Shown here: positions 7,915 to 27,196 of the stretch, one piece after another
Position numbering within the stretch: position 1 is the stretch's first letter
How the letters are laid out: every line of letters starts with the position of its first letter
Source of the DNA: Bradyrhizobium sp. AZCC 1693
Lineage (GTDB): Bacteria > Pseudomonadota > Alphaproteobacteria > Rhizobiales > Xanthobacteraceae
NCBI RefSeq assembly: GCF_036924745.1
Contig: NZ_JAZHSD010000001.1
Location: 7,253,001 to 7,317,000, forward strand
DNA: 64,000 bases
Direction: 5' to 3'
The notes under the pieces: generated by a model
The model's database searches: none
Told to the model about the DNA's origin: nothing
What the model saw: the letters and a program-made list of their open reading frames with translations, nothing else
Translations under genes and position numbers: made by a program

Positions 7915-10900
7915 CTATTCCTGCCGGATTCGGCCGACCGCCGCCTGGATACCGGTCCAGGCAGGCTTGTCCGGGGCGAATTGCCGCCGCAGATAAGTAG
8001 CCAGTTCCGCGACCTGGCTGTCGGTCAGGCTGTCCTTGAAGGCCGGCATATAGCCGAGATCGGTTGCGGCCGGCTTGGCGATGCCGTGCAGGATGAGCTG
8101 GATCAGATTGTCAGGCACGGCGCTGTGCAGATTACTGTTGAGCGCCAGCGACGGCCGGCTGCCGAACAGCGGCGCGCCGCCGACCTCGTGGCACACCGCG
8201 CAGGCGCCCTGGTAGATCCGGGCGCCGATGCTGGAGGCGGCCGATGCGCGCGTGCCGGTCGAGGATTCCAGCCGTGCGGCGAGCGCTTGCTGCGCCGCGC
8301 GATCCATGGAGGTCTCGTTGAACGAAGCGAGATAGACCGCCATGGCGCGGATATCGGAATCCGGAAGTGCTGCGAGCTCCTTCACCACCGGCGCCATCGG
8401 CCCGGCGGCGACGCCGTGAAGGCGCGACTCGCCGGTTCGCAAGTATGCGTAAAGCTCGTCCTCGCTCCACGGGATCGGCGCCTGCGACAGCGATGTCAGC
8501 GCCGGTGCTTCCCAGCCTTCCGCAAACCCGCCCGCGAGATAGCCGTTCGCTTTCTCCGCGCCGAGCGCATTGCGCGGCGAATGGCAGGCGCTGCAATGGC
8601 CGAGACCTTCCACCAGATAGGCGCCGCGATTCCATATCTCCGATTTCGCCGGGTCTGGCTGGAACGTGCCGTGCTTGTAGAACAGCGCATTCCAACCCGC
8701 CATCAGCGGACGAACGTTGAACGGAAACGCCAGCGCATTCTGCGGGGTCTCCGCGCGCACCGCCGGTTGCGCCATCAGATAGGCGTAGAGCGCCTGCATG
8801 TCGGCGTCGGTGGTCCTGGCGAAATGCGTGTAGGGAAATGCCGGATAGAGATGCCTTCCGTCGCGATGGATGCCCTCGCGCATCGCGCGTTCGAAGGCGG
8901 GATAGGACCATGCGCCGATGCCGGTCTCGACATCGGGCGTGATATTGGTCGAGTAGATCGTGCCAAATGGCGTCGGCAACGGCTTGCCGCCGGCATTGAG
9001 GACGCCGTTAGCCGAGGTATGGCAGACCGCGCAGTCGCCGAGCGCGGCGAGTTGCTGGCCGCGGGCAATAGTGGCAGCCGAATAGACCGAGGCATCGGGC
9101 CGTGCGACCGGCGCGATCGCACGCCACGGCAGTACGGCGGCGCCGATGCCGATCGCAGCCGCGCACAGGGCTGCAGCGGTGGCGAACACGCCGCGGCGCC
9201 CGGCGAAAGGATTCCGCCATCTGCTCAAGTCGGGCTGCGGCGCGGATGTTGGCGACGGCAACGCTTCCGGTGCAGGCTGTTCCTCGCCGCGCAGCCCCCG
9301 CAGGATGCGTTCCGGCGTGAACGGCAATTCGCGAAAGCGCACACCGGTCGCATCAAAGATGGCGTTGGCGATGGCAGCCGCACTCGGGACGGAAGCGGAC
9401 TCGCCGACGCCGAGTGGCGGCTGGTCCTGCCGCGGCAGCATCAACACGTCGATCTCGGGCACTTCGGGGAATTTGATAATGGGGTAGGCGCCCCATTCGC
9501 GGGCGGTCACGGAGGTGCGGTCGAACGACACTTCCTCCATCAGCGCGCGGCTGGTCGACTGGATGACGTTGCCGTGGATCTGGTGGCGCACGCCGTCCGG
9601 ATTGATCATCAGGCCGGAATCCTGCCCGGCGACCACGCGCGTCACACTGACATCGCCGGTTGCCTTGTTGACGGCGACGTCGGCGATCCATGCCGACCAC
9701 GCCGCGCCATAGCCGGGGAACTTGCTGTGGACATAGAGCGCATAGGCAAAGCCGCGCCCGCGCACGATGTCGCCCTCGGCTTCCATTTCCTCGCCGTACC
9801 GGCCGCGGCTTCCAGCCGGCGCGCTCGGCCACCGCATGGACGAGATCGATCGCGCGCTGGTCCTTCATATAGCGCAGGCGGTACTCGATCGGGTCGACGC
9901 CAGCTTCATCAGCGCATTCGTCGATCCAGGATTCATGCGCAAACGTGTTCGGCAGCGCCGAGACGCCGCGCAGCCAAGAGGCGCGCACGATCGGCGGCAT
10001 GTCGTTCGCGACCACGCGCAGATTGTCATAGTCGTAGGGTGGGATCGCGGTGCGGTCGCCCATCTCGAAGATGGCGGGCGTGTGCGGGATGGTGCCGGTC
10101 AGCAGCAGCGCCAGCGTCGGCGCGCCGTTCGATGGATAGCGCGTGGCGAAATCGTAGCCGGCGACGCTGCCATCGGCGTTCAATCCGCCGTTGACGTCCA
10201 TCACTTGCGCGGTGCCCTTCGGCTCCCACGCGTGCTCCTGCTCGCGCGTCAACTGCACGCGAACGGGCCGGCCGACGGCGCGCGACAGCAGGACGGCGTC
10301 GGCGGAGACGTCGTCGGCGCAGTTGCGGCCGTAGCAGCCGGCGGCCTCCATCCGGATCACCTCGATCTCGGCTTCGCGGCGACGGATCAGCCGTGCCAGC
10401 TCGGTGCGCAGATGGTGCGGGTTCTGCGAGCCGGACCAGACCCTGGTCTGATCCTCCTGATAGTCGGCGACCGCGCAGGATGGGCCGATCGAGGCGTGCA
10501 TCTGGTACGGCCAGATGTAGGTTCGCGGCATCGGCTTCGCCGCGCCGGCAATCGCCGCATCGACATTACCCTTGTCGATCAGCGTTCGCGGCGTCGACGG
10601 ATTGGCGCGCAGCGCGGTCTCGATGTCCTTGAGGTCGGGCAGCGTCGGCACCGGCTTCCAGCTCACCTTGAGCTGCGCCGCAGCTCTGATCGCGTTTTCC
10701 TCGCGCTCGGCGACGACGCCGACGAAGTCGCCGATCCTGACGATGGCGACCAGCCCGGGGATGTTGCTGACTGATGTCTCGTCGACCGCGATCAGGCTGT
10801 TGCCGATGAAGTCGCCAACATCGACGCCGGCATAGGGCGGACGGACGACGCGGCCATGCAGCATGCCGGGGACGCGCATATCGTGTACGTACACAAGTTC

Positions 10901-11473
10901 GCCGGTCGCCTTCGCCGGCAGATCGACACGCGGCACGGACTGCCCAACGATGGTGTAGGCATCAGCAGACTTCACGGGAACATCATCAGCCAGTTCAAGC
11001 TGGATGGACTCGCCGGATATCAGTTCGCCATAGCTGATGCTGCGATTGTCCTTGCCGCGTATCAAACCATCTTCAACAACAAGATCTTCGATCGGAAGCT
11101 CCAACCGCTCTGCGGCACGCGCGATCAGAAATTGCCGCGCCTGCGCGGCGGCCTTGCGCAGCGGCACGGCAGTGATCTGGATCGTTTCGCTCGCGATCGT
11201 CGCACCCTGATTGGGGACGAGCGATGTATCGCCGAGCACGACGACGACACGGGCAAAGGATACGTCGAGTTCCTCCGCGACGATCTGGCCGAGCGCGGTG
11301 CGGATGCCGGTGCCGAGATCGACATGACCGTTATACGCGGTGACCGATCCGTCGGCGGTAATTCTGATGAAGGTCTCGAACTTGACGGCCTCGACGGGGG
11401 AGGCCGGACGAACGACGGACAGCGTTCCCTGCATCCGTTCGCGATCCTCGGTCGTGTCGGGAGCCGTCATCAC
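7915..11473 (-). pseudogene. nicB: Nicotinate dehydrogenase large subunit NicB-like (Mo-hydroxylase fused to tri-heme cytochrome c), frameshifted
   Basis: Two reading frames together form one NicB-like protein. From 11473 to about 9800 the frame encodes the aldehyde-oxidase/xanthine-dehydrogenase molybdopterin domains. From about 9835 to 7915 a second frame continues the same domain (catalytic Glu in GVGESASVP), then a membrane segment and a cytochrome part with three CxxCH hemes (CAVCH, CSACH, CAVCH). The span of 3559 bases equals 1186 codons plus one base, close to the 1187 residues of Pseudomonas putida NicB. The frame changes near 9795-9830 in a GC-rich run, right after GWKPRP. The intact enzyme would hydroxylate nicotinate to 6-hydroxynicotinate and pass electrons through its hemes to the respiratory chain. 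It overlaps nicA by four bases. This is either a true mutation or a one-base sequence error. Confidence 0.8.
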
Positions 11474-11952
11474 GTCTGTGCCTCAACGACGTGGCCGGCA
11501 GCCCGCATCGCCGCGCGCATGATCTCGATATGCGCGCCGCAGCGGCACAGATAGTGGCGCAGCGCTTCCAGCACTTCGGCCTCGGTCGGGTGAGGGGAGC
11601 GCAGCAGCAGCGCCTTGGTCGCGATGATCATGCCGTTGAGGCAGTAGCCGCATTGCGCGGCCTGTTCGCGGATGAACGCCTGCTGCACGGGATCGGGATG
11701 CTCGCGCGTGCCCAGACCTTCGAGCGTCACGATGTCGCGCCCGGTGCAGCCCTCGATCGGGATCACGCAGGAACGCGCCGCGACGCCGTCGATCAGCACG
11801 GCGCAGGCGCCGCATTCGCCAAGACCGCAGCCGAATTTCGGTCCGTTCAAGGCGAGGTCGTTGCGCAGGACATAAAGTAATGCGGTGTCGGGCGCGGCGT
11901 CGACATCGCTGGTCTTGCCGTTGACGGTCAGGCGCATCGTGCTCTGCGTCAT
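11470..11952 (-). CDS. nicA: Nicotinate dehydrogenase small (2Fe-2S) subunit NicA-like
   Basis: A 160-residue protein with two [2Fe-2S] sites: plant-ferredoxin-type Cys42, 47, 50 and 62 (GCGLGECGAC...C) and the second site CGYC (101, 104) with CRC (136, 138). This is the small subunit of a two-component molybdenum hydroxylase. Length (P. putida NicA is 157 residues) and the overlapping tri-heme large-subunit gene support nicotinate dehydrogenase. It carries electrons from the molybdenum centre in nicB to the cytochrome domain. It is the first gene of the leftward unit, divergent from 6-hydroxynicotinate reductase. Another aromatic N-heterocycle as substrate is possible, but the neighbouring reductase argues for nicotinate. 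Confidence 0.88.
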   Translation of the reverse strand: MTQSTMRLTVNGKTSDVDAAPDTALLYVLRNDLALNGPKFGCGLGECGACAVLIDGVAARSCVIPIEGCTGRDIVTLEGLGTREHPDPVQQAFIREQAAQCGYCLNGMIIATKALLLRSPHPTEAEVLEALRHYLCRCGAHIEIMRAAMRAAGHVVEAQT

Positions 11953-12012
11953 GCTCCCCTAAGCCTTCGTTGCGCTGCAAAACTCTGTGCGGAACGCCCG
12001 GGAAAGATACCG

Positions 12013-12024
12013 TTTGTGTACAAA
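12013..12024. promoter_or_regulatory. Candidate operator TTTGTGTACAAA upstream of nicA
   Basis: A 12-base near-palindrome (flanked by G and C, extending the arms to GTTTGT/ACAAAC) lies ~60 bases upstream of the nicA start. It matches TTYGTRTACRAA, the pattern also seen at 12166-12177 and twice at 26353-26378. The binding regulator is unknown; the MarR gene at 20046 is one candidate, and GntR-type proteins often bind such sequences. Confidence 0.5.
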
Positions 12025-12206: not shown

Positions 12207-13685
12207 ATGATCGGCGCCTTCTCGACCGCAGGCTTGTTCATGACCGATGCGACCGTCGCCGGTGGCGACAAGATCCGCTGCGATGCCTGTCCGGTGATGT
12301 GTTACATCAAGCCGGGCGCAGCCGGCGCGTGCGATCGTTACGCCAACCACGACGGCGAACTGGTGCGCGTCGATCCGCATATCGTGCTGGAGCAGACGGT
12401 ATCGCATGGCGGGCGGCTGGTGCCGTTTCAGGCCGGCGGCGACTGGGACGGCAAGATCGTCCACGAGCCGAACGTGTTCGTCACGGCGATCGGTGCCGGC
12501 ACCACCTATCCCGATTACAAGCCGGCACCCTTCATTGTGTCGTCGGAAGTCGATGGCGTCGACATGGTCACGGTCGTGACCGAGGGCATTTTCAGCTATT
12601 GCGGCGTCAAGGTGAAGATCGACACCGACCGCTATCTTGGCCCGGAGACGGCGACGGTGCGCGCGGAAGGCGAGGCGATCGGCCATGTGACCACCAGCGA
12701 ATACGGCTCGCAGATGCTCTCCCTCGGCGGCGTGCATCATCTGACCGGCGGTTCCAAGAAGGAAGGCCGCGTCACCTGCGACGCGCTAATGGACCTGTCC
12801 AACTGCAAGCCGGTGGAACTGACCATCGACGGCGGCGCCACGGTCGTGGTGCAGGCGGGCCATCCCCCCATCGTCAATGGCGTTGCCGAAGAGCGCATGC
12901 GAGTGGGGTGCGGTTCGGCCACCATCGGCATGTTCGCCAAGCAATGGCATGGCAAGGTCGACGAGGTCGTGGTTGTCGACGACCACATTACCGGCGTTCT
13001 CTCGGAGCATCAGGCCGGCAAGCTCCTGGATATTCCCGATACCGGGATCAAGATGAAGGGGCGGCGCTCGACGCCGGGCCGTTACTTCCAGGTGGCCGAT
13101 CCCGGGACGGGGTGGGGCGGCACCAATATTTCCGATCCGCTGTCGGTGCTGGGGCCGTTCAATCCGAAGGAGGCGCGGCCCGGCCTGACCATGCTGATGG
13201 TTTCGACCACCGGCGAGCATGCCGCCTATTACGAACTCGACGAGGCGTTGCGGCCGATCGAAAAGCAGATGCCGCCCGATCTAAAATTCTCGGTCGAGCG
13301 CATCCAGGAAAACTGCGAACCGGCGCTATGCACGGTGTTGTTCATGGGCGGCGCTGGTGGTTCGCTGCGTGCCGGGGTCACCGACAATCCGGTTCGGCTG
13401 ACGCGCTCAGTCAAGGACGCGCTGACGCGGGTCACCAGCGGCGGCGCGCCGGTCTATGTCTGGCCCGGCGGCGGCATCACCTTCATGGTCGATGTCACGC
13501 AGATGCCGGCCGGCGCATTCGGCTATGTGCCGACGCCCGCGCTGGTGGCGCCGATCGAGTTCACACTGCGGCTTTCCGACTATGCCGCGCTCGGCGGTCA
13601 TATGGATCATGTCCGTCCGCTGGCGTCCCTGCGGGACAACACCGAAACCCGCCCGATGCCCTACATGCCGGGACGGCGCGCATGA
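12207..13685 (+). CDS. hnr: 6-hydroxynicotinate reductase
   Basis: A 492-residue protein that I recognise as the 6-hydroxynicotinate reductase family first known from Eubacterium barkeri. It reduces 6-hydroxynicotinate to 1,4,5,6-tetrahydro-6-oxonicotinate using reduced ferredoxin. An N-terminal iron-sulfur motif is visible: Cys25-x2-Cys28-x3-Cys32-x9-Cys42. The E. barkeri enzyme carries flavin and Fe-S clusters. The start at 12207 is supported by AGGAAG at 12196-12201; a later Met at 12240 is the alternative. Its stop overlaps the next gene (ATGA), so it is translationally coupled to the UPF0280 gene. The nicAB genes are divergent next door and enamidase lies 12 kb on under the same predicted operator, which strongly supports the assignment. 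Confidence 0.85.
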   Translation: MIGAFSTAGLFMTDATVAGGDKIRCDACPVMCYIKPGAAGACDRYANHDGELVRVDPHIVLEQTVSHGGRLVPFQAGGDWDGKIVHEPNVFVTAIGAGTTYPDYKPAPFIVSSEVDGVDMVTVVTEGIFSYCGVKVKIDTDRYLGPETATVRAEGEAIGHVTTSEYGSQMLSLGGVHHLTGGSKKEGRVTCDALMDLSNCKPVELTIDGGATVVVQAGHPPIVNGVAEERMRVGCGSATIGMFAKQWHGKVDEVVVVDDHITGVLSEHQAGKLLDIPDTGIKMKGRRSTPGRYFQVADPGTGWGGTNISDPLSVLGPFNPKEARPGLTMLMVSTTGEHAAYYELDEALRPIEKQMPPDLKFSVERIQENCEPALCTVLFMGGAGGSLRAGVTDNPVRLTRSVKDALTRVTSGGAPVYVWPGGGITFMVDVTQMPAGAFGYVPTPALVAPIEFTLRLSDYAALGGHMDHVRPLASLRDNTETRPMPYMPGRRA

Positions 13686-14590
13686 AGCGGCTCCCGCAAA
13701 TCGCGCTTCTTCCTGACGGCAAGCGGCTGCATTTGCAGGACGGTCCGATCGATCTGGTCATCGAGGCGAAGGGCAGGGACGGCGAAGTGCGCGCTGCGTA
13801 TGACGCGGCGGCGGGGCGCTTCACGGGCCTGCTGGATGAGCTGTGCGCGGAGCTGGTCGAGCTGCGCCGGCCAGCCGATCCGGTCAGATGCACGCTGAAG
13901 GGTGTCGTCGCGCGTCGCATGCATGCGGCTGTCGCGCCGTTTGCCGCTGAACACTTCATTACGCCGATGGCGGCGGTGGCCGGCAGCGTCGCGGAAGAAA
14001 TTCTCGGCTCGATGCTTGCCGCTGCACGGCTCGACCGCGCTTACGTCAATAATGGCGGTGACATCGCGCTGCACCTCGTCGGTGGCGAGCATTTTACCGT
14101 CGGCCTGTTGGACCGGCCCGACCGGCATGGCCTGATGCGAACGATTGATATTGACGCCGACGACCCAGTTCGAGGTATCGCGACCAGCGGGCGGCACGGC
14201 CGCAGTTTTTCGCTGGGGATCGCCGATGCCGTCACCGTGCTGGCGATAACTGCGTCGCAAGCGGATGCGGCGGCCACCATCATCGCCAATGCTGTCGATC
14301 TGCCTGGCCATCCTGCCATTGTCCGTTGTCCGGCCAACGCGTTGCAGCCCGACAGCGACCTCGGCGCGCGCCTTGTCACCCGCGACGTCGGCGCACTCGG
14401 AGAAGGCGAGATCGACGACGCGTTGAGGGCAGGGATCAGCCGGGCACAGCAATTGCTTGCGGCGGGATTGATCGAAGGTGCGGCCTTGCGTCTACTAGGC
14501 GAGACGGCCGTGGTGGGTGCAACAGGGATCAAGGCAGGCGCGTTGCCGGCGTTTCATGAAGGCGCACTGGAAAGACTGGCGCATGTGTGA
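13682..14590 (+). CDS. UPF0280 family protein (ApbE-like fold)
   Basis: A 302-residue protein of the UPF0280 family, which is related in fold to the FAD:protein FMN transferase ApbE. Conserved stretches include FITPMAAVAGSVAEEIL near residue 95, YVNNGGDIALHL near 122 and GIATSGRHGRSFSLGIADAV near 165. No family member has a firm activity that I know of. Its ATG overlaps the stop of 6-hydroxynicotinate reductase, so the two are probably made together. A role in loading or maintaining the reductase's flavin, or in handling the ring-opened product, is conceivable but only inferred. Confidence 0.8.
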   Translation: MKRLPQIALLPDGKRLHLQDGPIDLVIEAKGRDGEVRAAYDAAAGRFTGLLDELCAELVELRRPADPVRCTLKGVVARRMHAAVAPFAAEHFITPMAAVAGSVAEEILGSMLAAARLDRAYVNNGGDIALHLVGGEHFTVGLLDRPDRHGLMRTIDIDADDPVRGIATSGRHGRSFSLGIADAVTVLAITASQADAAATIIANAVDLPGHPAIVRCPANALQPDSDLGARLVTRDVGALGEGEIDDALRAGISRAQQLLAAGLIEGAALRLLGETAVVGATGIKAGALPAFHEGALERLAHV

Positions 14591-14608: not shown

Positions 14609-15193
14609 ATGGGCGCGATCATTCGCAAGATCGTCACGGTGGTCGAGGAAACCCATCTGGAGATGGGACAACAGGTTGCGCCGCCGACGCGGCGCGCAGC
14701 GGCAATCGCGGTGATCGAGAACCCCTTTGCAGGCCGGTACGTCGAGGATCTCTCACCCCTGATCGAAATCGGCGAGGAGCTTGGCGATCTGCTTTCGAAG
14801 AAGGCGGTGGCTGCGCTCGGCATCGACGGCGCCAAGGCGCACAGCTACGGCAAGGCCGCAGCCGTCGGCGAAAACGGTGAATTGGAACACGCGGCAGCGA
14901 TCCTGCATCCCAAGATGGGCGCGCCGGTGCGGAAAGTCCTGGGCAAGGGCGCGGCGCTGATCCCGTCGTCGAAGAAGCGCAGCGGCCCGGGAACGACGCT
15001 GGATATTCCGCTCGGCCACAAGGACGCGGCCTTCGTGCGCAGCCATTTCGACGGCATGGAAGTGCAGATCAACGATGCGCCGCGCGCCAACGAGATCATG
15101 GTGGCGGTTGCGGTTACCGACAGCGGCAGGCCATTGCCGCGGGTCGGCGGATTGACGGTTTCGGAAGTCAAAGGCGAAGACGGTTTAAGATAA
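14609..15193 (+). CDS. AA_synth (DUF1185) family protein
   Basis: A 194-residue cytosolic protein matching the 'amino acid synthesis' family (PF06684, formerly DUF1185). Recognisable parts are the N-terminal IRKIVTVVEETHLEMGQ, the central AVIENPFAGRY, and GKGAALIPSSKKRSGPGTT near residue 110. No verified reaction is known to me for this family. It begins 18 bases after the UPF0280 gene and is followed 24 bases later by the ABC binding-protein gene, so it is part of the 6-hydroxynicotinate reductase operon. A step in the lower nicotinate pathway is a fair guess but unproven. Confidence 0.8.
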   Translation: MGAIIRKIVTVVEETHLEMGQQVAPPTRRAAAIAVIENPFAGRYVEDLSPLIEIGEELGDLLSKKAVAALGIDGAKAHSYGKAAAVGENGELEHAAAILHPKMGAPVRKVLGKGAALIPSSKKRSGPGTTLDIPLGHKDAAFVRSHFDGMEVQINDAPRANEIMVAVAVTDSGRPLPRVGGLTVSEVKGEDGLR

Positions 15194-15217: not shown

Positions 15218-16420
15218 ATGCGACGTAGACACGTATTGGGAGCAGGCTTGGCGATCGCGGTTGCCGGCATGGCGGGCAGCGCCATGGCGCAAAGCGAGAT
15301 CAAGATCGGCGAGATCAACAGCTATTCGCTGTTGCCCGCCTTCACCGAGCCCTATCGCAAGGGCTGGCAGCTCGCGGTCGAGGAAGTCAACGCGGCGGGC
15401 GGCATCAACGGCAAGAAGCTCGTCGTCATCTCCAAGGATGACGGCGGCAAGCCGGCGGATGCGCAGACCGCGGCCAACGAACTGGTGTCGAGCGAGAACG
15501 TGGCGATGCTGACCGGCACGTTCCTGTCCAACATCGGTCTCGCCGTCTCCGACTTCGCCAACCAGAAGAAGGTGTTCTTCCTGGCGGCGGAGCCGCTGAC
15601 CGACGCCATCACCTGGTCCAAGGGCAATCGATACACGTTCCGCCTGCGTCCTTCCAACTACATGCAGGCGGCGATGCTGGTGGAAGAGGCCGCAAAACTG
15701 CCGGCCAAGCGCTGGGCGACGATTGCGCCGAACTATGAATACGGCCAGTCGGCGGTCGCGGTGTTCAAGAAGCTGATGTCGGAGAAGCGTCCGGACATCC
15801 AGTGGGTCGATGAGCAGTGGCCGCCTCAGGGCAAGATCGACGCCGGCCCGGTGGTGCAGGCGGTGGCCGCCGCCAATCCCGAAGCGATCCTCAACGTCAC
15901 CTTCGGCGCCGATCTGGTGAAGCTCGTACGCGAAGGCAATACGCGAGGCCTGTTCAAGGGGCGCTCGGTGGTGTCCTTCCTCACCGGCGAGCCGGAATAT
16001 CTCGATCCGCTGAAGGAAGAAACGCCGGAGGGATGGATCGTCACGGGTTACCCCTGGTACGACATCAAGACGCCGGACCACGACAAGTTCCTGAAGGCGT
16101 ATCAGGCCAAGTACAGCGATTATCCGCGGTTGGGCTCGATCGTCGGCTACCAGACCATCAAGGCGGCTGCGGCAATCCTTGCGAAAGCCAATTCGACCGA
16201 CCCGGAGAAGCTGATTGCAGCCACCGAAGGCCTGTCGATGCCGTCGCCGTTCGGCGAGATCACCTTCCGCAAGATCGATCACCAGTCGACGCTTGGCGCT
16301 TATGTCGGCAAGACCGCGCTGAAGGACGGCAAGGGCGTGATGGTGAACTCCGTCTATCGCAAGGGCGCGGACTATCTGCCTGGTGATGCGGAAGTTGCCA
16401 AGCTGCGTCCGAAGGATTGA
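15218..16420 (+). CDS. Branched-chain-type ABC transporter substrate-binding protein (LivK family)
   Basis: A 400-residue periplasmic binding protein (Peripla_BP_6). The signal peptide is MRRRHVLGAGLAIAVAGMAG with cleavage near AMAQ. The start at 15218 follows a strong GGAGGTAGGG (15208-15217). The body shows the family's usual AVEEVNAAGGINGKKL segment and the ligand-lobe signature LTGTFLSNIGLAVSDFA. It would deliver its ligand to the LivHM and LivGF proteins encoded next. The class imports branched amino acids, but also amides, aromatic acids and heterocycles. Position in the nicotinate operon suggests nicotinate or a related acid; this is inferred. Confidence 0.88.
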   Translation: MRRRHVLGAGLAIAVAGMAGSAMAQSEIKIGEINSYSLLPAFTEPYRKGWQLAVEEVNAAGGINGKKLVVISKDDGGKPADAQTAANELVSSENVAMLTGTFLSNIGLAVSDFANQKKVFFLAAEPLTDAITWSKGNRYTFRLRPSNYMQAAMLVEEAAKLPAKRWATIAPNYEYGQSAVAVFKKLMSEKRPDIQWVDEQWPPQGKIDAGPVVQAVAAANPEAILNVTFGADLVKLVREGNTRGLFKGRSVVSFLTGEPEYLDPLKEETPEGWIVTGYPWYDIKTPDHDKFLKAYQAKYSDYPRLGSIVGYQTIKAAAAILAKANSTDPEKLIAATEGLSMPSPFGEITFRKIDHQSTLGAYVGKTALKDGKGVMVNSVYRKGADYLPGDAEVAKLRPKD

Positions 16421-16431
16421 AGCTCTCCGCT

Positions 16432-16592
16432 CTCTCTTCTCCCTCTCCCCGTTCTTACGGGGAGAGGGTCGGGGTGAGGGGCTGTCTCCGCGAATTCCAC
16501 TGATAGTAAGCTTGCGGATAAAGCCCCTCACCCGGAATTCAAGCTGACGCTTGAATTCCGGCCTCTCCCCGCGCGCGGGGAGAGGCTAAGTC
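16432..16592. repeat. Intergenic palindromic repeat, 'ctctccccg...cggggagagg' family
   Basis: Several nested inverted repeats lie between the binding-protein and permease genes: CCTCTCCCCGTTCTTACGGGGAGAGG-type arms at about 16439-16468, GGAATTCAAG/CTTGAATTCC at about 16532-16560 and CCTCTCCCC/GGGGAGAGG at about 16562-16585. It resembles the element at 4258-4395. Inside an operon it could partly terminate or stabilise the upstream message and so raise the level of binding protein over permease; this is inferred. Confidence 0.75.
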
Positions 16593-16643
16593 GAGCCCCG
16601 ACGCGCCGATCTAATCTGAAGCGACCACCAACCCGGACCGCCC

Positions 16644-18530
16644 ATGGCCTTCTACTTCGTTCAGTTCCTGACCGGTCTCGCCAGCGCGGCGTCGCTGTTT
16701 CTGGTCGCGTCGGGGCTGTCGATCATCTTCGGCGTGACGCGGATCGTGAATTTCGCTCATGGTGCGTTCTACATGCTCGGCGCCTATCTCGCGTTCACGC
16801 TGACCGAGCGCTTCTCCGGCGCGCTTGGCTTCTGGGGCGGCATCGTCGTTGCGGCGCTGGTGGTGGCCATTGTCGGCGTGCTGGTCGAGATGGTGCTGCT
16901 GCGGCGGATCTATCATGCGCCGGAATTGTTCCAGCTGCTCGCGACCTTCGGCCTCACTCTGATGGTCCAGGATATCGTGGTGCTGATCTGGGGACCGGAC
17001 GATCTGCTCGGCCGCCGCGCGCCCGGCTTCAGGGGCGCGGTCGATTTCTTCGGCCAGAATATCCCAAGCTACGATCTGTTCCTGATTGCGCTTAGTCCAG
17101 TCGTGCTCGGCGTGCTCTGGCTGTTGTTCCAGCGCACGCGCTGGGGCGTGCTGGTGCGCGCCGCGACGCAGGACCGCGACATGGTGGCGGCGCTTGGCGT
17201 CAATCAGAAATGGCTGTTCACCAGCGTGTTCGCGCTCGGCGTCTTTCTCGCCGCGCTCGGCGGCGCGCTGCAGATTCCGCGCGATGCGGTGCATCACGCG
17301 CTCGACCTGCGCATCATCGTCGACGTGTTCGTGGTGGTGGTGATCGGCGGCCTCGGCAGCATCATCGGCGCTTTCGTGGCCGCTGTGCTGGTGTCAGAGC
17401 TCAACGCCTTCGGCATTCTTATTTTCCCAAAAATCTCCATCATCCTGGTGTTCCTGGTGATGGCGGTGGTGCTGATCGTGCGTCCCTGGGGCCTGTTCGG
17501 CAAGCCTGAAGCCGCCGCGCGCCGCACGCCCGGGCTGACAGTCAATCCGTGGCGGCCGCTGACCTCGGGCGAGCGGTTGATGTCGATCGGCGCGCTAGCT
17601 CTTGCGGCGATGCTGCCGTTCTTCGCCGGCAACTATGCGCTCACCGTCGGCTCCGAGATCGCGATCTTCGTGATCTTTGCCGCCAGCCTGCATTTCCTGA
17701 TGTCGGTCGGCGGGCTCGCCTCGTTCGGCCACGCCGCCTATTTCGGGCTCGGCGCCTATGGCGTCGCGTTCCTCGCCAAGGCGGCGGGGCTGCCGATGAT
17801 CGTCTCGCTGCTGCTGGGTCCGCTGCTGGGGCTATTCGGGGCTGCGGTATTCGGCTTCTTCGCCGTGCAACTATCGGGCGTCTATTTCGCGATGCTGACA
17901 TTGGCCTTTGCGCAGATCGTCTGGTCGATCGCGTTCCAGTGGGTCACCGTGACCGGCGGCGACAACGGCATTTTGGGCGTCTGGCCGGATAAATGGGCCG
18001 CGGGCCCGCCCAGTTTTTACTGGCTGTCGCTTGCGATCGCCGCGCTTGCGGTCACGGTGTTGCGGGTGATCGTGTTCTCGCCGTTCGGCTTCGCGCTGCG
18101 CGCGACGCGGGACTCGCCGCTGCGCAGCGAAGCGATCGGCATCAACGGCAAGCGCGTGCAGTGGACGGCCTTCGTCATATCAGGGACGGTCGCAGGCATC
18201 GGCGGCGCGCTGTTCGCCTATCTTAAGGGAAGCGTCTTCCCCGACAGCCTTGGCATCTCGCTGTCCGTCGATGCGCTGGTGATGGTGCTGCTCGGCGGCG
18301 TCGAGACGGTTTCCGGTGCTGTTATCGGCGCCATCGTCTTCAAGGCGGCCAACATCTGGCTGGTCAGCCAAACCGATCTCTCAAAACTGGTGCTGGGCGG
18401 CTTCATCGTGCTGATGGTGGTGGCCTTCCCCAAGGGCATCGTCGGCACGCTGGAGACGATCAGGAATCGCCGGCGACCCTCCGAACCGAAATCCGCGCTT
18501 GCTACCTCCCGCGTCGAGGTTGCCGAATGA
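16644..18530 (+). CDS. Fused LivH-LivM branched-chain-type ABC transporter permease
   Basis: A 628-residue inner-membrane protein that joins the two permeases usually encoded as livH and livM. Residues ~1-290 are LivH-like (FGVTRIVNFAHGAFYMLGAY near 35). Residues ~300-610 are LivM-like (GGLASFGHAAYFGLGAYG near 355 and FALRATRDSPLRSEAIGI near 480). About 16 membrane segments are expected. It forms the channel for the ligand delivered by the upstream binding protein. The stop overlaps the livG-like ATG (ATGA), showing tight coupling. Confidence 0.9.
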   Translation: MAFYFVQFLTGLASAASLFLVASGLSIIFGVTRIVNFAHGAFYMLGAYLAFTLTERFSGALGFWGGIVVAALVVAIVGVLVEMVLLRRIYHAPELFQLLATFGLTLMVQDIVVLIWGPDDLLGRRAPGFRGAVDFFGQNIPSYDLFLIALSPVVLGVLWLLFQRTRWGVLVRAATQDRDMVAALGVNQKWLFTSVFALGVFLAALGGALQIPRDAVHHALDLRIIVDVFVVVVIGGLGSIIGAFVAAVLVSELNAFGILIFPKISIILVFLVMAVVLIVRPWGLFGKPEAAARRTPGLTVNPWRPLTSGERLMSIGALALAAMLPFFAGNYALTVGSEIAIFVIFAASLHFLMSVGGLASFGHAAYFGLGAYGVAFLAKAAGLPMIVSLLLGPLLGLFGAAVFGFFAVQLSGVYFAMLTLAFAQIVWSIAFQWVTVTGGDNGILGVWPDKWAAGPPSFYWLSLAIAALAVTVLRVIVFSPFGFALRATRDSPLRSEAIGINGKRVQWTAFVISGTVAGIGGALFAYLKGSVFPDSLGISLSVDALVMVLLGGVETVSGAVIGAIVFKAANIWLVSQTDLSKLVLGGFIVLMVVAFPKGIVGTLETIRNRRRPSEPKSALATSRVEVAE

Positions 18531-19318
18531 GCATGGTCCCCACATTGCTGTCGGTCGAGAATCTGAGCAAGTCCTATGGCGGCGTCCATGCCGTGCGCAG
18601 CGTGTCGTTCGAACTGCGCGCCGGCGAAATCCTGGCGCTGATCGGTCCCAACGGCGCCGGCAAGAGCACATGCTTCGACATGCTCAACGGCCAGAACATC
18701 CCGGACAGTGGCCGCGTCACTTTGCTCGGCGAGGATACCGTCGGCCGGAAGCCGCGCGCGATCTGGCGGCTCGGCGTCGGGCGCACGTTCCAGATCACCG
18801 CGACGTTCCCGACCATGACGGTGCGCGAGAACGTGCAGGTCGCGCTGGTGTCGTCTGGCAGGCAGTTGTTCAACCTCTGGGGCTCGACCGCAGGTTACGC
18901 GCGCGAGGAGGCGGGGCGGCTGCTCGATCTCGTCGGCATGGGCGCCTATGCCGGGCGTCCGTGCGGCGAGTTGGCTTACGGCGATCTCAAGCGGCTCGAG
19001 CTTGCGATCGCGCTCGCCAACCAACCAAAACTTCTCCTGATGGACGAGCCAACCGCGGGCATGGCGCCGCGCGAGCGGATCGAGCTGATGCGGCTCACCG
19101 CGCGCATCGCCCGCGAGCAGTCGATCGGCGTGCTCTTCACCGAGCACGACATGGACGTGGTGTTCGAACATGCCGACCGCATTCTTGTGCTCAATCGCGG
19201 CAGCCTGATCGCGGAAGGCTCGCCCGAGGAAGTTCGCGGCAATCCGCAGGTGCGCGCGATCTATCTCGGCGAAGGCCTTGTCTACGACGCACGTCACCGC
19301 GAGGGAGCCGGCGCATGA
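18527..19318 (+). CDS. LivG-like ABC transporter ATPase
   Basis: A 263-residue cytoplasmic ATPase. Walker A is GPNGAGKST (~residues 42-50), the ABC signature region is LAYGDLKRLELA (~148) and Walker B LLLMDEPTAGMA (~168), followed by FTEHDMDVVF with the switch His. The Q-loop region GVGRTFQITATFP is also clear. It overlaps the permease gene and the next ATPase gene by four bases each. With the LivF-like partner it energises import. Confidence 0.92.
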   Translation: MSMVPTLLSVENLSKSYGGVHAVRSVSFELRAGEILALIGPNGAGKSTCFDMLNGQNIPDSGRVTLLGEDTVGRKPRAIWRLGVGRTFQITATFPTMTVRENVQVALVSSGRQLFNLWGSTAGYAREEAGRLLDLVGMGAYAGRPCGELAYGDLKRLELAIALANQPKLLLMDEPTAGMAPRERIELMRLTARIAREQSIGVLFTEHDMDVVFEHADRILVLNRGSLIAEGSPEEVRGNPQVRAIYLGEGLVYDARHREGAGA

Positions 19319-20019
19319 AGCTGCAGGTCGCCGATCTCAACAGTTTTTATGGCCCGGCGCATATCCTGTTCGATATCGCGCTCGAAGTCGGCGAGGGCGA
19401 GGTGGTCGCGCTGCTCGGCCGCAACGGTGCCGGCAAATCGACCACCTTCCGTTCGATCGTGGGTCTCGTCGAGAACCGTTCGGGGCGGATCGTCTTCGAA
19501 GGCAAGGACGTCTCGCGCGAGCCAACGCATGCGATCGTGCGCAGCGGGCTCGGTTATGTGCCGGAGGAGCGTCGCATCTTCACGGACCTGACGGTTGAGG
19601 AAAATCTCGAGGTCGGCCGCCAGCCGAAACGGCCCAACGCGCCGCAGTGGACGCGCGAAAAACTGTTCACGCTGTTTCCCAATCTCGGCGAAATGCGCAA
19701 CCGCCCGGGCGGGCGCATGAGCGGCGGCGAGCAGCAAATGCTGACGATTGCGCGGACGCTGATGGGCAATCCGTCGCTGGTGCTGCTCGATGAACCCTCC
19801 GAAGGGCTGTCGCCAAAGATCGTCGAGCAGATGGTCGAAGCCATTCTCGCGATGAAGAGGGAAGGCGTCAGCATCGTGGTATCCGAGCAGAATCTGCATT
19901 TCGCGCGGTTGATCTCCGACCGCGCCTACATCATCGAGCGTGGCAAGATCTGCTTCGGCGGCACGATGGCGGAACTCGATGCGCGGCCGGACATCCGGGA
20001 CGCGCATCTGTCGCTGTAG
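19315..20019 (+). CDS. LivF-like ABC transporter ATPase
   Basis: A 234-residue second ATPase of the importer. Walker A is GRNGAGKST, the signature is MSGGEQQML, Walker B is LVLLDEPSEGLSP and the switch region SEQNLHFA. The LivF-type GYVPEERRIFTDLTVEENL segment is clear. It overlaps the livG-like gene (ATGA). It ends the transporter genes; a MarR regulator gene starts 26 bases later on the same strand and may be in the same transcript. Confidence 0.92.
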   Translation: MKLQVADLNSFYGPAHILFDIALEVGEGEVVALLGRNGAGKSTTFRSIVGLVENRSGRIVFEGKDVSREPTHAIVRSGLGYVPEERRIFTDLTVEENLEVGRQPKRPNAPQWTREKLFTLFPNLGEMRNRPGGRMSGGEQQMLTIARTLMGNPSLVLLDEPSEGLSPKIVEQMVEAILAMKREGVSIVVSEQNLHFARLISDRAYIIERGKICFGGTMAELDARPDIRDAHLSL

Positions 20020-20045: not shown

Positions 20046-20501
20046 ATGGGGAGGAGTGTTTCGCCGAAACGAGCGGTCAAGCCAGCGCGGCCGTCCTACA
20101 TTCTCGACGAACAGATCGGCTTCATCCTGCGCCAGGTCTGGCAGCGCCACGCCACCATCTTCGCCCGCGAAATCGGAATCAATTTGACACCGACGCAATG
20201 GGCGGCGCTTGCAAAGCTGACCGAGACCGGGCCGTGCTCGCAGAACCTGCTGGGGCGGCTGACGGCGATGGACGTCGCCACCATCAAGGGCGTGATCGAC
20301 CGCTTGACCGCACGCGGGCTGACCGAGACCAGCCCGGACCCTGAGGACGGCCGCCGCTTGCTGGTGAGCCTGACGCGCGCCGGCCAGCAACTGGCGGAGA
20401 AGGCCGCGCCGAACGCGCTCGCGATCAGCCGCGAGACGCTGGCGCCACTCGATGCGAACGAGCGCGAGACACTGATCGCGTTGCTCGACAAGCTGCGCTG
20501 A
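20046..20501 (+). CDS. MarR-family transcriptional regulator (possible NicR-like repressor)
   Basis: A 151-residue winged-helix protein. The DNA-reading helix lies in GRLTAMDVATIKGVIDRLTARGL (residues ~74-96), followed by the wing DPEDGRRLLVSLT. It is the last gene of the hnr-to-liv run. In P. putida the nicotinate genes are repressed by NicR, also a MarR protein, released by 6-hydroxynicotinate. By context this could be the local counterpart and could bind the GTATAC palindromes at 12013-12177 and 26353-26378. I see no copy of the palindrome at its own start. The link is inferred. Confidence 0.82.
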   Translation: MGRSVSPKRAVKPARPSYILDEQIGFILRQVWQRHATIFAREIGINLTPTQWAALAKLTETGPCSQNLLGRLTAMDVATIKGVIDRLTARGLTETSPDPEDGRRLLVSLTRAGQQLAEKAAPNALAISRETLAPLDANERETLIALLDKLR

Positions 20502-22590: not shown

Positions 22591-22835
22591 CGTACTGCCT
22601 CCCTGTTTGCCTCGATGTTCAGCAACACGGCTCGGCGGCATGCATCAGCAAGAAATACCCGGCGCGTTGAGTTCCTCTCGCGAGTGCCGCCGGCCAAGCT
22701 TTGTGCAATCGACAATACACCGCAATATCGCAGGCGAAAACAACGATGGTGCGACCGATCCGGTTGCCTGGACCACCAATCAGCCGATCACACAAAACAG
22801 GTAGTTCGAAGCGCTAATCGGCGAAGAGTTCCGCC

Positions 22836-23261
22836 CTATCTGACCGTGATGGTAATTTTCTGCGAGACCACGGGAGGATTGTGCGGGTAGTGTTCGGCAT
22901 CCCCCAGCACGAGCTGGAGCGTATGCTTGCCGGGCGGAAGTTCGATCCGCGCTTCGGTCTGGCCCGCCCCAAAATGAAGATGTGACTTGTCCTGCGGGAT
23001 CGGTTCGTTCGGATTGAGCGGCTCATTCACGTCGACCAGAAGATGATGATGGCCGCTGTTCGGGTAGGTGTCGCCAGCGTGCGTAACGCCCATGTTGCGC
23101 AGACCGAAGCGGCACCAAAATCCGCCTTTGATGGAGGCGCCGTTCTGCGGCCACACGAAATAGAGAAGGGCATCCTTGTGTGCGGGCTTTCCTTGAGCGC
23201 ACGCGGCGAACGGCAGGCAAGTGAGCGCTGCTGACAGAGCGATCCACTGCATGAATTTCAT
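22836..23261 (-). CDS. Secreted DUF4399 protein
   Basis: A 141-residue protein with a signal peptide (MKFMQWIALSAALTCLPFAA, cleavage near ACAQ). The rest matches DUF4399: NSGHHHLLVDV near residue 70, LHFGAGQTEA near 95 and LPPGKHTLQLVLGDAEHYPH near 108. The His-rich clusters suggest metal binding in the periplasm, but no function is known. It lies 21 bases downstream of the cyclase-FGE gene on the same strand and is probably co-transcribed with it. Confidence 0.85.
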   Translation of the reverse strand: MKFMQWIALSAALTCLPFAACAQGKPAHKDALLYFVWPQNGASIKGGFWCRFGLRNMGVTHAGDTYPNSGHHHLLVDVNEPLNPNEPIPQDKSHLHFGAGQTEARIELPPGKHTLQLVLGDAEHYPHNPPVVSQKITITVR

Positions 23262-23282
23262 GACTGCCTCTTCAACGCTCCC

Positions 23283-24848
23283 TTAGGGAGAAAGTGCGAC
23301 GCGGAACCCATGGGTGGGATATCGAACGTTGGTGTCATAGCTTCCGCGGTTTGATGTCCGGGCATAGGTCGAGTCTTTCCTCCAGGAACCGGAACGGATG
23401 ACGTGCGAGGGGCATTCGTTCTCGACCCACGCTGATCCGTCCGCGGGAGCGCCTTGATAGTTTCTGTGCCAGCAATCTTCGACCCATTGATCGACGGCGC
23501 CGCCCATATCGAAGAGTCCAAAAGGATTTGGCTTCAGGCTGCCGACCTTGACCGGCTGATCGATGGCTGGAATGTCGCTGCAGTTCTTGCAATTGACCAT
23601 GCCGGGCTGAAACTGATCGCCCCACCAGTATCTGGTCTGCGTGCCGCCGCGCGCTGCATATTCCCATTCAGCTTCGCTCGGTAGTCGATACGGCTTGCGG
23701 GTGGTTTCGGCGAGCCAGGCGACGTACTGCTTTGCGTCGCTCCAGCTTACGTTTCCAACAGGCGCATCGTCCTTTCCGCTCGCCGTAAACCCGCATGCCT
23801 TTGCGGCGGCGCATGCATTCCATTCCCGCACGGAGACCGGAAATTTCCCCATCGCAAATGGCTTAACCGTTACCTGGCGGACCGGCTTTTCCGAAACGTC
23901 TTCGTTGCTGCCCATCGCGAAGCTGCCACCCCGAAGCGAAATCATCTCGGGTTCTCGAACCGGTGCAGCGGCTTGCGACGTCGGCGGAGTCTCGGGTGCG
24001 GCGGAAGACGCCGGCGGCGGTAGCGGCGCCGCCTGTTGTTGCGTTGGTGCTACGGAAGGAGAAGGTTGGGGCGCCGGCGCTCGTTGTTTCGCGGCAGGCG
24101 CAGGCGCCTTCGGCGCTTCCACCGGAGATGAAACGGGAGCCGACGCCTGATTTATCGCCTTGCGAGGCTGTGCGAACATGTACCAGAGAGTGCCGATCGC
24201 AATGGTCAGCATCGCAATGCCGAGCAAGAGCATCAGGACGCGTTCGCGCCGGTTCCGATATGCGTTAAGGGCGGAGGGGTCGGGAAGCACCCGGTAGACC
24301 CGAACGGGATCGGTGATGTTCTTGACCTTTCGATCACCGAGCGACTCGTATCCGCAAACCAGCTTATGCTTTATCTGCTCATAGATGCCGCCGGAGATAT
24401 AGACTTCGCCGGGATGGGCTATGCCCTCAAGCCGCGTGGCAATATTGACGCCGTCGCCATAGACGTCGTCGGTTTCGATAATCACGTCCCCAAGATTGAC
24501 GCCAATCCGATATTCGATCCAATGATGCTTGGGCAGCGATGCATTGCGGCCAACCAGATTTTGCTGGATCACGATGCTGGATCGGACGGCTTCGACCGGG
24601 CTGTCGAAAATGGCGATGAAGCCGTCGCCCGTGGTTTTAACAAGCCTGCCGTGGTGTTCTCTGATGCTGGGTTCGATGAGGTCGCGCTCGATCCGCTTGA
24701 CGCGATTGTGCGTCCCTTCCTCGTCGATCTGCATCAGACGGCTGTAACCGGAGATGTCGCCTGCCACGATGGCCGCAAGGCGGCGTGGCATTGGCTCGGG
24801 CGATGGCTCACCCGTTCGGCCTGACTTGATGTCACGAATTTGGGCCAT
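23283..24848 (-). CDS. Class III adenylate/guanylate cyclase fused to a periplasmic FGE-sulfatase-like domain
   Basis: A ~521-residue membrane protein. Residues ~25-190 form a class III cyclase with metal Asp residues in AGDISGYS and TTGDGFIAIF and the transition-state pair in NIATRLE. A membrane helix (LMLLLGIAMLTIAIGTLWYM) follows near residue 205, then ~80 residues of Pro/Ala-rich linker, then a formylglycine-generating-enzyme-like domain (~310-521: SLRGGSFAMGS, RLPSEAEWEYAARGG, IRSGSWRKDSTYARTSNR, GFRVAL). The cysteine pair used by true aerobic FGEs is absent at the usual place, so this domain probably senses or binds a ligand. This would be a cAMP-producing receptor with an outside sensor. 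The start at 24848 was chosen over an upstream Met because of GGGAGCC before it. Confidence 0.85.
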   Translation of the reverse strand: MAQIRDIKSGRTGEPSPEPMPRRLAAIVAGDISGYSRLMQIDEEGTHNRVKRIERDLIEPSIREHHGRLVKTTGDGFIAIFDSPVEAVRSSIVIQQNLVGRNASLPKHHWIEYRIGVNLGDVIIETDDVYGDGVNIATRLEGIAHPGEVYISGGIYEQIKHKLVCGYESLGDRKVKNITDPVRVYRVLPDPSALNAYRNRRERVLMLLLGIAMLTIAIGTLWYMFAQPRKAINQASAPVSSPVEAPKAPAPAAKQRAPAPQPSPSVAPTQQQAAPLPPPASSAAPETPPTSQAAAPVREPEMISLRGGSFAMGSNEDVSEKPVRQVTVKPFAMGKFPVSVREWNACAAAKACGFTASGKDDAPVGNVSWSDAKQYVAWLAETTRKPYRLPSEAEWEYAARGGTQTRYWWGDQFQPGMVNCKNCSDIPAIDQPVKVGSLKPNPFGLFDMGGAVDQWVEDCWHRNYQGAPADGSAWVENECPSHVIRSGSWRKDSTYARTSNRGSYDTNVRYPTHGFRVALSP

Positions 24849-25077
24849 GGCTTGGATTGGCTCCCAACTGCGAATACGAATACAGTGTGAGGCAAGCAAT
24901 CTTTCCAGCGCCTACACCGTACCATGGTGGCTATTCGCCGCAAGCAGCCGTGCGCGGGTTCCACGCGGTTCGTAAGGGCTAAGTGTGAGTGAGCTCACAA
25001 AAAATGAGGCCTGACCGGCAATTCGGTCGTCGCGTTTGAGGGTATAGTCGCCCGGCGCACTCGCAGGGCCAGCGGCA

Positions 25078-26277
25078 TCAATGCCCGATGAGGATCTCCG
25101 GCACTTTCCCCGCCGGCGGCGTGTTGCGGCTGCGCTGGGTGCGGACGATGCCGTCGATGATGGTCATGCCGATGCCCGGGAGATCGCCGAGCTGCACGCT
25201 TTCCAAAATGTTCTTGCCGGGCGAGTGCTGCGCCTTGTCCATCAGGACGAAGTCTGCCGAGCGGCCGACCTCGATGATGCCGCAGTCGAGCTCGCGCATG
25301 CGGGCGGTGTTGCCGGTGGCAAGGCAGAAGGCGAGTTCGGCGGGCAGGTCGCCGAGCGACGACAGCATCGAGACCATGCGCAAAATGCCGAGCGGCTGCA
25401 CGCCGGAGCCGGCCGGCGCATCGGTGCCAAGGATAACGCGGTGAAGGTCGCCCATCTCGCGCGCGGTGCGCAGCGTGAACAGCGCCGAGCGTTCGTTACC
25501 GTTGTGAACGAGCTCCAGCCCGCGCTTGCAACCCTCGCAGATGCAACGAATTTGGTCGTCGGGCAGGGCGGTGTGGCCGCCGTTGATGTGGCCGACCACG
25601 TCGGTGTCGGCTTCCAGCACCACGTCCTTGTCGATCAGGCCGGAGCCGGGGATCGACGGACCGCCGGTGTGGATCGTGCTCTGGATGCCATACTTGCGCG
25701 CCCAGCCGACCATTTTGCGCGCGGTCGGGCCGTCCTTGACGCCGCCCAGGCCGACTTCGCCGAGCAGCTTGACGCCGGCCGCCGCCAATTCCCTAAAATC
25801 GTCCTCGACCATTTCGCATTCGATCACCGGCGCGCCGGCGTGAACTTTCACGCCGCCGGGACGCAGCGTCCAGAATGCGCGCTGCGCAAAAATCGCCATC
25901 GCCTTCAACCCGACGACGTCGCGGGGGCGGCCGGGCATGTGGACTTCGCCGGCCGAGATCATGGTGGTGACGCCGCCATGGAGGTAGCTGTCGATCCAGT
26001 TGCTCTGGTTCTGCCGCGGCGTCCAGTCGCCGGCGACGGGATGGACGTGGCTGTCGATCAGGCCCGGCGCGACGGTGGTACCGTTGGCATCGACCACGGT
26101 GGTGGCGCCCTCGGTGTTGACGTCCTTGAAGCGGCCGATGGCCGTGATCTTGCCGTTCTCGGCCACGATCGTATCGCCGTCCAGGATCGGCTTTTCCAGC
26201 GCCCCCGATAGCAGCAGCCCGATATTGCGGATCACCAGCTTGCTCGGGCCGGTCGCCTGGGGTGCATCGTGGGCCAT
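25078..26277 (-). CDS. ena: Enamidase (6-oxo-1,4,5,6-tetrahydronicotinate amidohydrolase)
   Basis: A 399-residue metal-dependent amidohydrolase. Metal ligands are visible as DSHVHP, GEVGLGG, HTGG, HINGG and GTDAP. The segments LHGGVTTMISAG and, near the C-terminus, SRNTPPA match the Eubacterium barkeri enamidase as I recall it. That enzyme opens the ring of 1,4,5,6-tetrahydro-6-oxonicotinate to 2-formylglutarate and ammonia. It is cytosolic. The start at 26277 follows AAAAGGA; an in-frame Met 12 codons earlier is less likely. It is divergent from ferredoxin-NADP reductase across a region with two GTATAC palindromes like that before 6-hydroxynicotinate reductase. A general imidazolonepropionase-like hydrolase is the fallback. 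Confidence 0.87.
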   Translation of the reverse strand: MAHDAPQATGPSKLVIRNIGLLLSGALEKPILDGDTIVAENGKITAIGRFKDVNTEGATTVVDANGTTVAPGLIDSHVHPVAGDWTPRQNQSNWIDSYLHGGVTTMISAGEVHMPGRPRDVVGLKAMAIFAQRAFWTLRPGGVKVHAGAPVIECEMVEDDFRELAAAGVKLLGEVGLGGVKDGPTARKMVGWARKYGIQSTIHTGGPSIPGSGLIDKDVVLEADTDVVGHINGGHTALPDDQIRCICEGCKRGLELVHNGNERSALFTLRTAREMGDLHRVILGTDAPAGSGVQPLGILRMVSMLSSLGDLPAELAFCLATGNTARMRELDCGIIEVGRSADFVLMDKAQHSPGKNILESVQLGDLPGIGMTIIDGIVRTQRSRNTPPAGKVPEILIGH

Positions 26278-26323
26278 GGTTTTTCCTTTTGGTTCAATGC
26301 CTTCGCCGGACATTCTGCCCGGC

Positions 26324-26378
26324 TTGACGATCGGATCAAGCTGGATTATTCATTTGTATACGAACGATCGTATACGAA
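26324..26378. promoter_or_regulatory. Divergent ena/fpr promoter region with two GTATAC operators
   Basis: Two palindromes stand 14 bases apart: TTTGTATACGAA at 26353-26364 and ATCGTATACGAA at 26367-26378. For the rightward gene a -35 TTGACG (26324-26329), 17 bases and a -10 TATTCA (26347-26352) precede the first palindrome directly. The pattern equals that at 12166-12177, so the same regulator probably controls enamidase, the reductase operon and ferredoxin-NADP reductase. Confidence 0.65.
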
Positions 26379-26422
26379 TGATTGAGCCGGTCAATCCGGC
26401 GTGCAGGTCAGGGAACGGTGCG

Positions 26423-27196
26423 ATGAGCAATTTCAACCAGGAAAGCGTGCTGAGCGTCCATCACTGGACCGATACGCTGTTCAGCTTCACCACCACGCGC
26501 GATCCTTCGTTCCGCTTCCGCAACGGCGAGTTCACCATGATCGGGCTGAAGGTCGGCGAAAAGCCGCTGCTCCGCGCCTACTCGGTCGCCAGCGCCAATT
26601 ACGAGGACCGGCTCGAATTCTTCTCAATCAAGGTGCCGGACGGGCCGCTGACCTCGCGCCTCCAGCATCTGAAGCAGGGCGACGAGATCATCGTCAGCCG
26701 CAAGGCCACCGGTACACTGGTCATCGACAACCTCGAGGACGGCCGCAACCTCTATTTGATCGGCACGGGCACGGGCCTGGCCCCGTTTCTTTCCGTGATC
26801 AAGGATCCCGAGACCTATGAGCGGTTCGAGAAGGTGGTGCTGTTGCACGGCTGCCGCCGCGTGAAGGAACTCGCCTATGGCGAGATGATCACCGAAAAGC
26901 TGCCGAACGACGAACTGATCGGCGAATATATCCGCAATCAGCTGGTCTATTATCCGACCGTGACCCGCGATCCCTTCCGCAACCGCGGCCGCATCACCGA
27001 CCTGATCAATTCAGGCAAGCTATTCGCCGATATCGGGCTGGCCTCGCTCGATCCCGCCCATGACCGCGTCATGATCTGCGGCAGCCCGGCGCTGGTGGCT
27101 GACACGCGCACGCTGCTCAACGGCAGGGGATTTGTCGAAGGCAATCACGGCGAGCCCGCGCAGTTCGTGGTCGAGAAGGCATTCGCGGAGCGTTGA
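26423..27196 (+). CDS. fpr: Ferredoxin--NADP reductase
   Basis: A 257-residue flavoprotein of the bacterial FNR type. The FAD motif RAYSVAS is near residue 52, the NADP pyrophosphate motif GTGTGLAPF near 113 and the C-terminal FVVEKAFAER is typical of subclass I enzymes. It shuttles electrons between NADPH and ferredoxin or flavodoxin in the cytosol. Sharing a regulated divergent promoter with enamidase, it is a good candidate to supply low-potential electrons for 6-hydroxynicotinate reductase. No ferredoxin gene is seen beside it. Confidence 0.92.
   Translation: MSNFNQESVLSVHHWTDTLFSFTTTRDPSFRFRNGEFTMIGLKVGEKPLLRAYSVASANYEDRLEFFSIKVPDGPLTSRLQHLKQGDEIIVSRKATGTLVIDNLEDGRNLYLIGTGTGLAPFLSVIKDPETYERFEKVVLLHGCRRVKELAYGEMITEKLPNDELIGEYIRNQLVYYPTVTRDPFRNRGRITDLINSGKLFADIGLASLDPAHDRVMICGSPALVADTRTLLNGRGFVEGNHGEPAQFVVEKAFAER

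Follow-up and report, generated by a model that had tools for sequence, protein, structure and literature searches.

How does an aerobic-looking alphaproteobacterium break down nicotinate with a gene cluster that encodes the ring reduction of a fermenter? The question is raised by a stretch of 64,000 nucleotides from Bradyrhizobium sp. AZCC 1693 (the window; positions 7253001-7317000 of a single-contig 7.6 Mb genome), in which a first-pass annotation had placed the nicotinate dehydrogenase subunits NicA and NicB, the 6-hydroxynicotinate reductase Hnr, the enamidase Ena and a ferredoxin-NADP reductase (FNR). All five were found, NicB in two frames (Table 1). The gene set, its orthology to the Eubacterium barkeri enzymes and its conservation were observed directly, and the locus is very probably a catabolic cluster for nicotinate in which a NicAB entry is followed by Hnr and Ena. 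The hybrid route read by the first-pass annotation is well supported by the sequences and the gene order; its genetic basis, however, had already been published (PMC3511419).

The text and the Figure 4 legend of that 2012 paper place the same cluster in Azorhizobium caulinodans (AZC_2804-2790), Bradyrhizobium japonicum (blr3818-3830), Rhodopseudomonas palustris and SG-6C, where a BLAST search with the E. barkeri cluster had detected it. They report that 6-hydroxynicotinate was degraded in assays of growth and of resting cells, have nicotinate metabolised via 1,4,5,6-tetrahydro-6-oxonicotinate (THON) through the cluster, give Hnr as 42% identical to the E. barkeri enzyme, and list the UPF0280 and DUF1185 genes as being of unknown function in 2012. 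Because they also state the remaining A. caulinodans route, from THON to tricarboxylic acid cycle intermediates via glutarate (citing Kitts 1992), the new lower pathway that had been suggested is not indicated, and the lack of lower-pathway genes in the 64 kb is no evidence for one. The pathway and the cluster are already known in Bradyrhizobium, and the finding as first given is therefore ordinary for the genus. The earlier reading was right in outline but not new, and it overlooked two conserved unknown proteins, UPF0280 and DUF1185. The new content that we propose is the assignment of partners to these two proteins and a replacement of the ring opener.

The identities of Hnr and Ena stood up to comparison. 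Hnr aligns with its counterpart in the E. barkeri genome at 40% identity (454 aligned positions); as a single sequence it had no match in Pfam, NCBIfam or the PDB. Its cysteines 25, 28, 32, 42, 235 and 370 are invariant in all 62 sequences, and C25, C28, C32 and C42 probably bind the [2Fe-2S] cluster. Ena is 46% identical to its E. barkeri counterpart, matches 2VUN in the PDB with E=1.4e-108 (second match, 9.4e-06) and conserves the amidohydrolase HxH motif as HVH. Among the family's 58 genomes with Hnr, 55 have an Ena orthologue, as do four genomes without Hnr (G116, G148, G166, G169). The Hnr of G213, split over two frames, entered the counts once. The Alhapel 2006 abstract reportedly places the first three genes in nine Proteobacteria. 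In the proposed pathway, NicAB would hydroxylate nicotinate to 6-hydroxynicotinate and pass the electrons to cytochrome c; NADPH, via FNR and a carrier, would drive Hnr, which is predicted to reduce the ring to THON; and Ena would open the THON lactam. The resulting enamine would be hydrolysed to 2-formylglutarate and ammonia, followed by decarboxylation and oxidation to glutarate, as reported for Azorhizobium.

UPF0280 comes after hnr in all 32 hnr-bearing genomes among the 398 Pseudomonadota searched; the remaining 366, which are without hnr, yielded no copy. E. barkeri also carries it. Its modelled structure adopts the ApbE fold: flavin transferases make up all 19 solved folds that rank behind 2O34, and the NGGD, TSG and ADAxAT positions show no or almost no variation. 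Hnr is said to hold a covalently bound flavin in addition to one [2Fe-2S] and two [4Fe-4S] clusters, and it is for this reason that we propose UPF0280 as a dedicated maturation factor, which would install or service the covalent flavin of Hnr; we give this role an even chance. No paper on UPF0280 was found in the library searched.

The other conserved protein, DUF1185, appears to be tied to ring opening. It is 56% identical to the product of the gene beside ena in E. barkeri, and its gene directly follows ena in E. barkeri, E. aggregans, A. bakii and the locus L092. Some DUF1185 is present in 27 of the 28 Pseudomonadota Hnr loci read, the exception being L110 (the loci are L100, L102, L104, L106-L117 and L123-L135; the continuations L101, L103 and L105 are not counted separately, and L099, without Hnr, is excluded from all counts). 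The window type, defined as at least 261 bits, a line set after the scores were known (next lower, 183) on a scale that also falls with kinship, occurs in 12 of the 12 loci with Ena in the cluster versus 1 of the 16 others. Among the listed matches, DUF1185 lies within 15 kb of the Ena orthologue in 48 of 59 cases and at about 36 kb in two, and is lacking from the contig in nine. Ena paralogues (36-45% identity) are accompanied by a listed DUF1185 no more than about 1.6 kb away in at least 30 of 55 cases, 29 of them in genomes without Hnr, a lower bound that counts neither second tandem copies nor matches outside the list; for the other 25, it lies at 13 kb in one, only far away in two, and is not among the listed matches on the contig in 22. 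The four loci of this kind that were read (L118-L121), with an Ena paralogue and DUF1185 in genomes without Hnr, have an HpaB-like monooxygenase gene close by, scoring under the curated cut-offs, and are candidates for an oxidative N-heterocycle pathway. Because fermentative and aerobic clusters alike retain the gene, it should serve a step common to both routes, namely enamine hydrolysis, and we tentatively suggest, at slightly under even chances, that DUF1185 hydrolyses the ring-opening product, an enamine (aminomethylene-glutarate). A chorismate-mutase-like fold class is common to RidA/RutC. Such a fold is described for PF06684 in passages of PMC2954203.

Ena itself is absent (E<=1e-30) from 14 of the 22 Hnr genomes outside the genus of the window; G317 and G387, in which Ena lies on a contig other than that of Hnr, are counted as positive. 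HyuA, of the hydantoinase/oxoprolinase type, is encoded near Hnr in 8 of the 14 Ena-less genomes (L110, L111, L113, L124, L125, L128, L129, L131) versus none of 14 Ena-positive loci (Fisher p=0.002, kinship ignored). HyuB is beside it in six (L111, L113, L124, L129, L131, and L125 via L153) and was not found beside HyuA in L110 and L128; the assignments were checked against Pfam in L110, L111 and L113, and were made by similarity elsewhere. The remaining Ena-less genomes have an amidase beside the cluster (two) or nothing recognised (four). According to PMC8453981 and PMC11033972, respectively, HyuAB-related enzymes hydrolyse caprolactam and an ATP-dependent system hydrolyses six-membered valerolactams. 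HyuAB is likely to be an ATP-dependent replacement of the enamidase in the Ena-less clusters that encode it.

Hnr differs between lineages at its N-terminus, and with it perhaps the electron supply. N-terminal 2[4Fe-4S] motifs are present in all eight scorable loci of L089-L098 (seven from Bacillota and one from a deltaproteobacterial metagenome-assembled genome; L091 and L096 were not scorable), versus none of the 50 scored Pseudomonadota loci, in which the sequence upstream of Hnr showed no ferredoxin motif either; the Hnr of the window is likewise without the domain. The domain has possibly been lost from the Pseudomonadota Hnr as an adaptation to oxygen. In the stretches read, 12 of the 28 Pseudomonadota clusters have an FNR gene close to Ena, Hnr or HyuAB (G105, G122, G138, G399, G566, G065, G188, G024, G520, G364, G251, G569), and FNR would be the electron donor for Hnr. 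The FNR of the window exceeds the cut-offs of both PF00175 (37.6 bits) and PF00970.

The entry enzyme has the NicAB make-up, a [2Fe-2S] subunit and a molybdenum subunit with cytochrome c domains, but NicB is split across two overlapping frames. Compared with two sister genomes (L100/L102), nicB carries a one-base shift near 9793, which may be a sequencing error or real; a single intact reading frame was not found in the window assembly, whereas NicB is one open frame of 1186-1190 amino acids in the sisters G105, G122 and G138. The entry dehydrogenase varies among clusters, being NicAB in some and an FAD subunit with a fused iron-sulphur/molybdenum subunit (Ndh type) in others. An isochorismatase-family hydrolase is also encoded inside the Hnr cluster in L123, L114, L130, L132, L129, L131, L134, L135 and L124, accompanied in L123 by a CitMHS_2 transporter; it is possibly a nicotinamidase feeding the pathway.

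From these comparisons emerges a tentative general picture, to which we give nearly even chances: Hnr and its own ApbE-fold flavin-maturation protein UPF0280, without the ApbE histidine and target motif, would form a portable core, around which the other parts are swapped. The entry step would fall to NicAB, linked to cytochrome, or to Ndh, linked to FAD. Electrons would enter through a fused 2[4Fe-4S] domain in Bacillota, whereas Pseudomonadota are without it and often have an FNR gene. The ring would be opened by Ena with DUF1185 as enamine hydrolase, or by an ATP-dependent HyuAB lactamase.

Several observations weigh against a flavin role for UPF0280. The ApbE catalytic triad Asp-Ser-His and target motif D-x-x-[S/T]-G-A-[S/T] were taken from PMC12052999. 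Matching to the Vc_ApbE residues by motif, not by superposition, shows S169 and D195 to be invariant in 20 UPF0280 sequences with no invariant His between them, and the target motif occurs in 0 of 62 (set A3) and 0 of 18 (set A2) Hnr sequences, the short [S/T]GA[S/T] in two and one; the flavin role may therefore be a non-transferase one, or wrong. The window UPF0280 scores 16.2 bits against PF02424 (Pfam ApbE), under the cut-off of 25.6, which the E. barkeri protein exceeds with 29.2 bits. A shorter, distant UPF0280 is present in 32 of 67 genomes of the E. barkeri order, 29 of them without Hnr, so that the wider family has other work. G007 has UPF0280 and Hnr on different contigs, the sole such genome of the family in which Hnr is not at a contig end (the splits in G098 and G133 are contig breaks), and P0030 and P0117 could be products of a frameshift or of assembly joining. 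The covalent flavin itself reportedly comes from the Alhapel 2006 abstract. The missing histidine and target motif would suit a UPF0280 that has retained the ApbE fold but partners Hnr in a structural or substrate-handling role, which we regard as a real possibility of less than even chances; the flavin-transferase folds ranked after 2O34 and the invariant or nearly invariant motif positions argue against it.

Doubts extend to the other steps. Ena was not found (E<=1e-60) in three of the family's 58 genomes with Hnr (G059, G123, G183). The E. barkeri Ena frees ammonia unaided, and DUF1185 may be dispensable or act elsewhere. It could instead be an isomerase or decarboxylase of a formyl-dicarboxylate, which we consider rather unlikely: the E. 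barkeri route reduces formylglutarate without decarboxylation, in which a decarboxylase would be misplaced, and the position directly after ena in four clusters also speaks for the enamine hydrolase. For the isomerase or decarboxylase speaks the homologue TgnF, said in passages of PMC7913881 to stimulate succinate-semialdehyde oxidation in trigonelline breakdown. Because NicB is broken in the assembly, the strain may not take nicotinate, unless the base is an error. Another possibility would be that the substrate of the cluster is a related substituted pyridine, such as 6-chloro- or another hydroxynicotinate, with NicAB decaying and 6-hydroxynicotinate as the real entry. The frameshifted NicB and the inconstant entry dehydrogenase fit this, as does SG-6C, which channels 6-chloronicotinate in at 6-hydroxynicotinate according to the text of PMC3511419. 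Against it, that source has SG-6C metabolise nicotinate by way of this cluster too, NicB is whole in the three closest of the sister genomes read, and a single indel in one assembly gives little support to decay. We therefore consider it very unlikely and retain nicotinate as the substrate.

The surroundings of the nicotinate cluster are compiled in Table 1. The PncB gene, which adjoins nicB also in L100, L102, L104, L115 and L117, is a neighbour competing for nicotinate. The substrate-binding protein of the transporter is a putative nicotinate uptake component, and the MarR protein, which has a match above 90 bits in 24 of the 28 loci, is a probable regulator of the cluster. MarR and Ena are separated in the window by SBP56, DUF4399 and FGE/cyclase genes (21190-24899), while Ena adjoins MarR in G024 of the same genus (L116). 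The SBP56 gene, methanethiol-oxidase-like, and the DUF4399 gene occupy 21190-23261, an arrangement not seen in L116; at 23283-24899, a single open reading frame fuses an adenylate/guanylate cyclase domain with an FGE-sulfatase (formylglycine-generating) domain. Beside the cluster, 27208-34847 encodes SoxA, SoxY, SoxX, a flavocytochrome c sulfide dehydrogenase flavoprotein and an isoquinoline-type molybdenum hydroxylase subunit; SoxA and the flavocytochrome c flavoprotein are retained in the sisters L101, L103 and L105.

Table 1. Features of the nicotinate locus, in window positions
Feature	Position	Strand	Basis
Nicotinate phosphoribosyltransferase (PncB)	6541..7845	-	NF003704 510 bits, cut-off 379
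NicB C-terminal part (Mo-domain end and cytochrome c domains)	7915..9837	-	PF20256, PF00034, PF13442
NicB N-terminal part (Mo-cofactor domains)	9353..11473	-	PF02738, PF20256
NicA, [2Fe-2S] subunit of nicotinate dehydrogenase	11470..11952	-	PF01799, PF00111
Hnr, 6-hydroxynicotinate reductase	12207..13685	+	E. barkeri Hnr homology
UPF0280, ApbE-superfamily protein	13682..14590	+	
DUF1185	14609..15193	+	PF06684 251 bits, cut-off 27; 2QTP 3.6e-87
Branched-chain-type ATP-binding cassette (ABC) transporter, whole gene set	15218..20019	+	
ABC substrate-binding protein	15218..16420	+	PF13458 235 bits; UrtA/LivK-like, under NCBIfam cut-offs
Fused LivH-LivM-type permease	16644..18530	+	PF02653 in two stretches
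LivG-type ATPase	18527..19318	+	
LivF-type ATPase (approximate start)	19318..20019	+	
MarR-family regulator	20046..20501	+	PF01047 38.9 bits, cut-off 24.6
Enamidase (Ena)	25078..26313	-	2VUN, E. barkeri Ena homology
Ferredoxin-NADP reductase (FNR)	about 26423..27196	+	NF008178 157 bits, under cut-off 390

Compared with the clusters of PMC3511419, as given in its text and legend, the window differs in its frameshifted nicB and in the three additional genes between marR and ena. The E. barkeri cluster (L089) likewise has Hnr adjoining UPF0280 and Ena adjoining DUF1185, but its dehydrogenase is of the FAD/molybdenum type and its Hnr carries the N-terminal 2[4Fe-4S] domain, while the aerobic clusters often have FNR and another lower pathway. 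Between UPF0280 and the FAD subunit, E. barkeri also has a 3-hydroxyisobutyrate-dehydrogenase-family gene, which we take to be Hgd. With the nic cluster of Pseudomonas putida, the window shares a cytochrome-linked nicotinate dehydrogenase of the NicAB type; the next steps there are the oxygenases NicC and NicX, where the window has Hnr and Ena. From the ApbE flavin transferases, UPF0280 differs in lacking the conserved catalytic histidine, in a partner without the canonical target motif and, in the window, in its score under the PF02424 cut-off. The comparison turns two conserved unknown genes into testable hypotheses: UPF0280 would form a second branch within the ApbE superfamily, possibly in the service of an iron-sulphur flavoenzyme of the cytoplasm, and DUF1185 would act in enamine hydrolysis in both reductive and HpaB-monooxygenase clusters. 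A replacement of the enamidase by an ATP-dependent enzyme and the loss of the 2[4Fe-4S] domain from Hnr in Pseudomonadota are further suggested.

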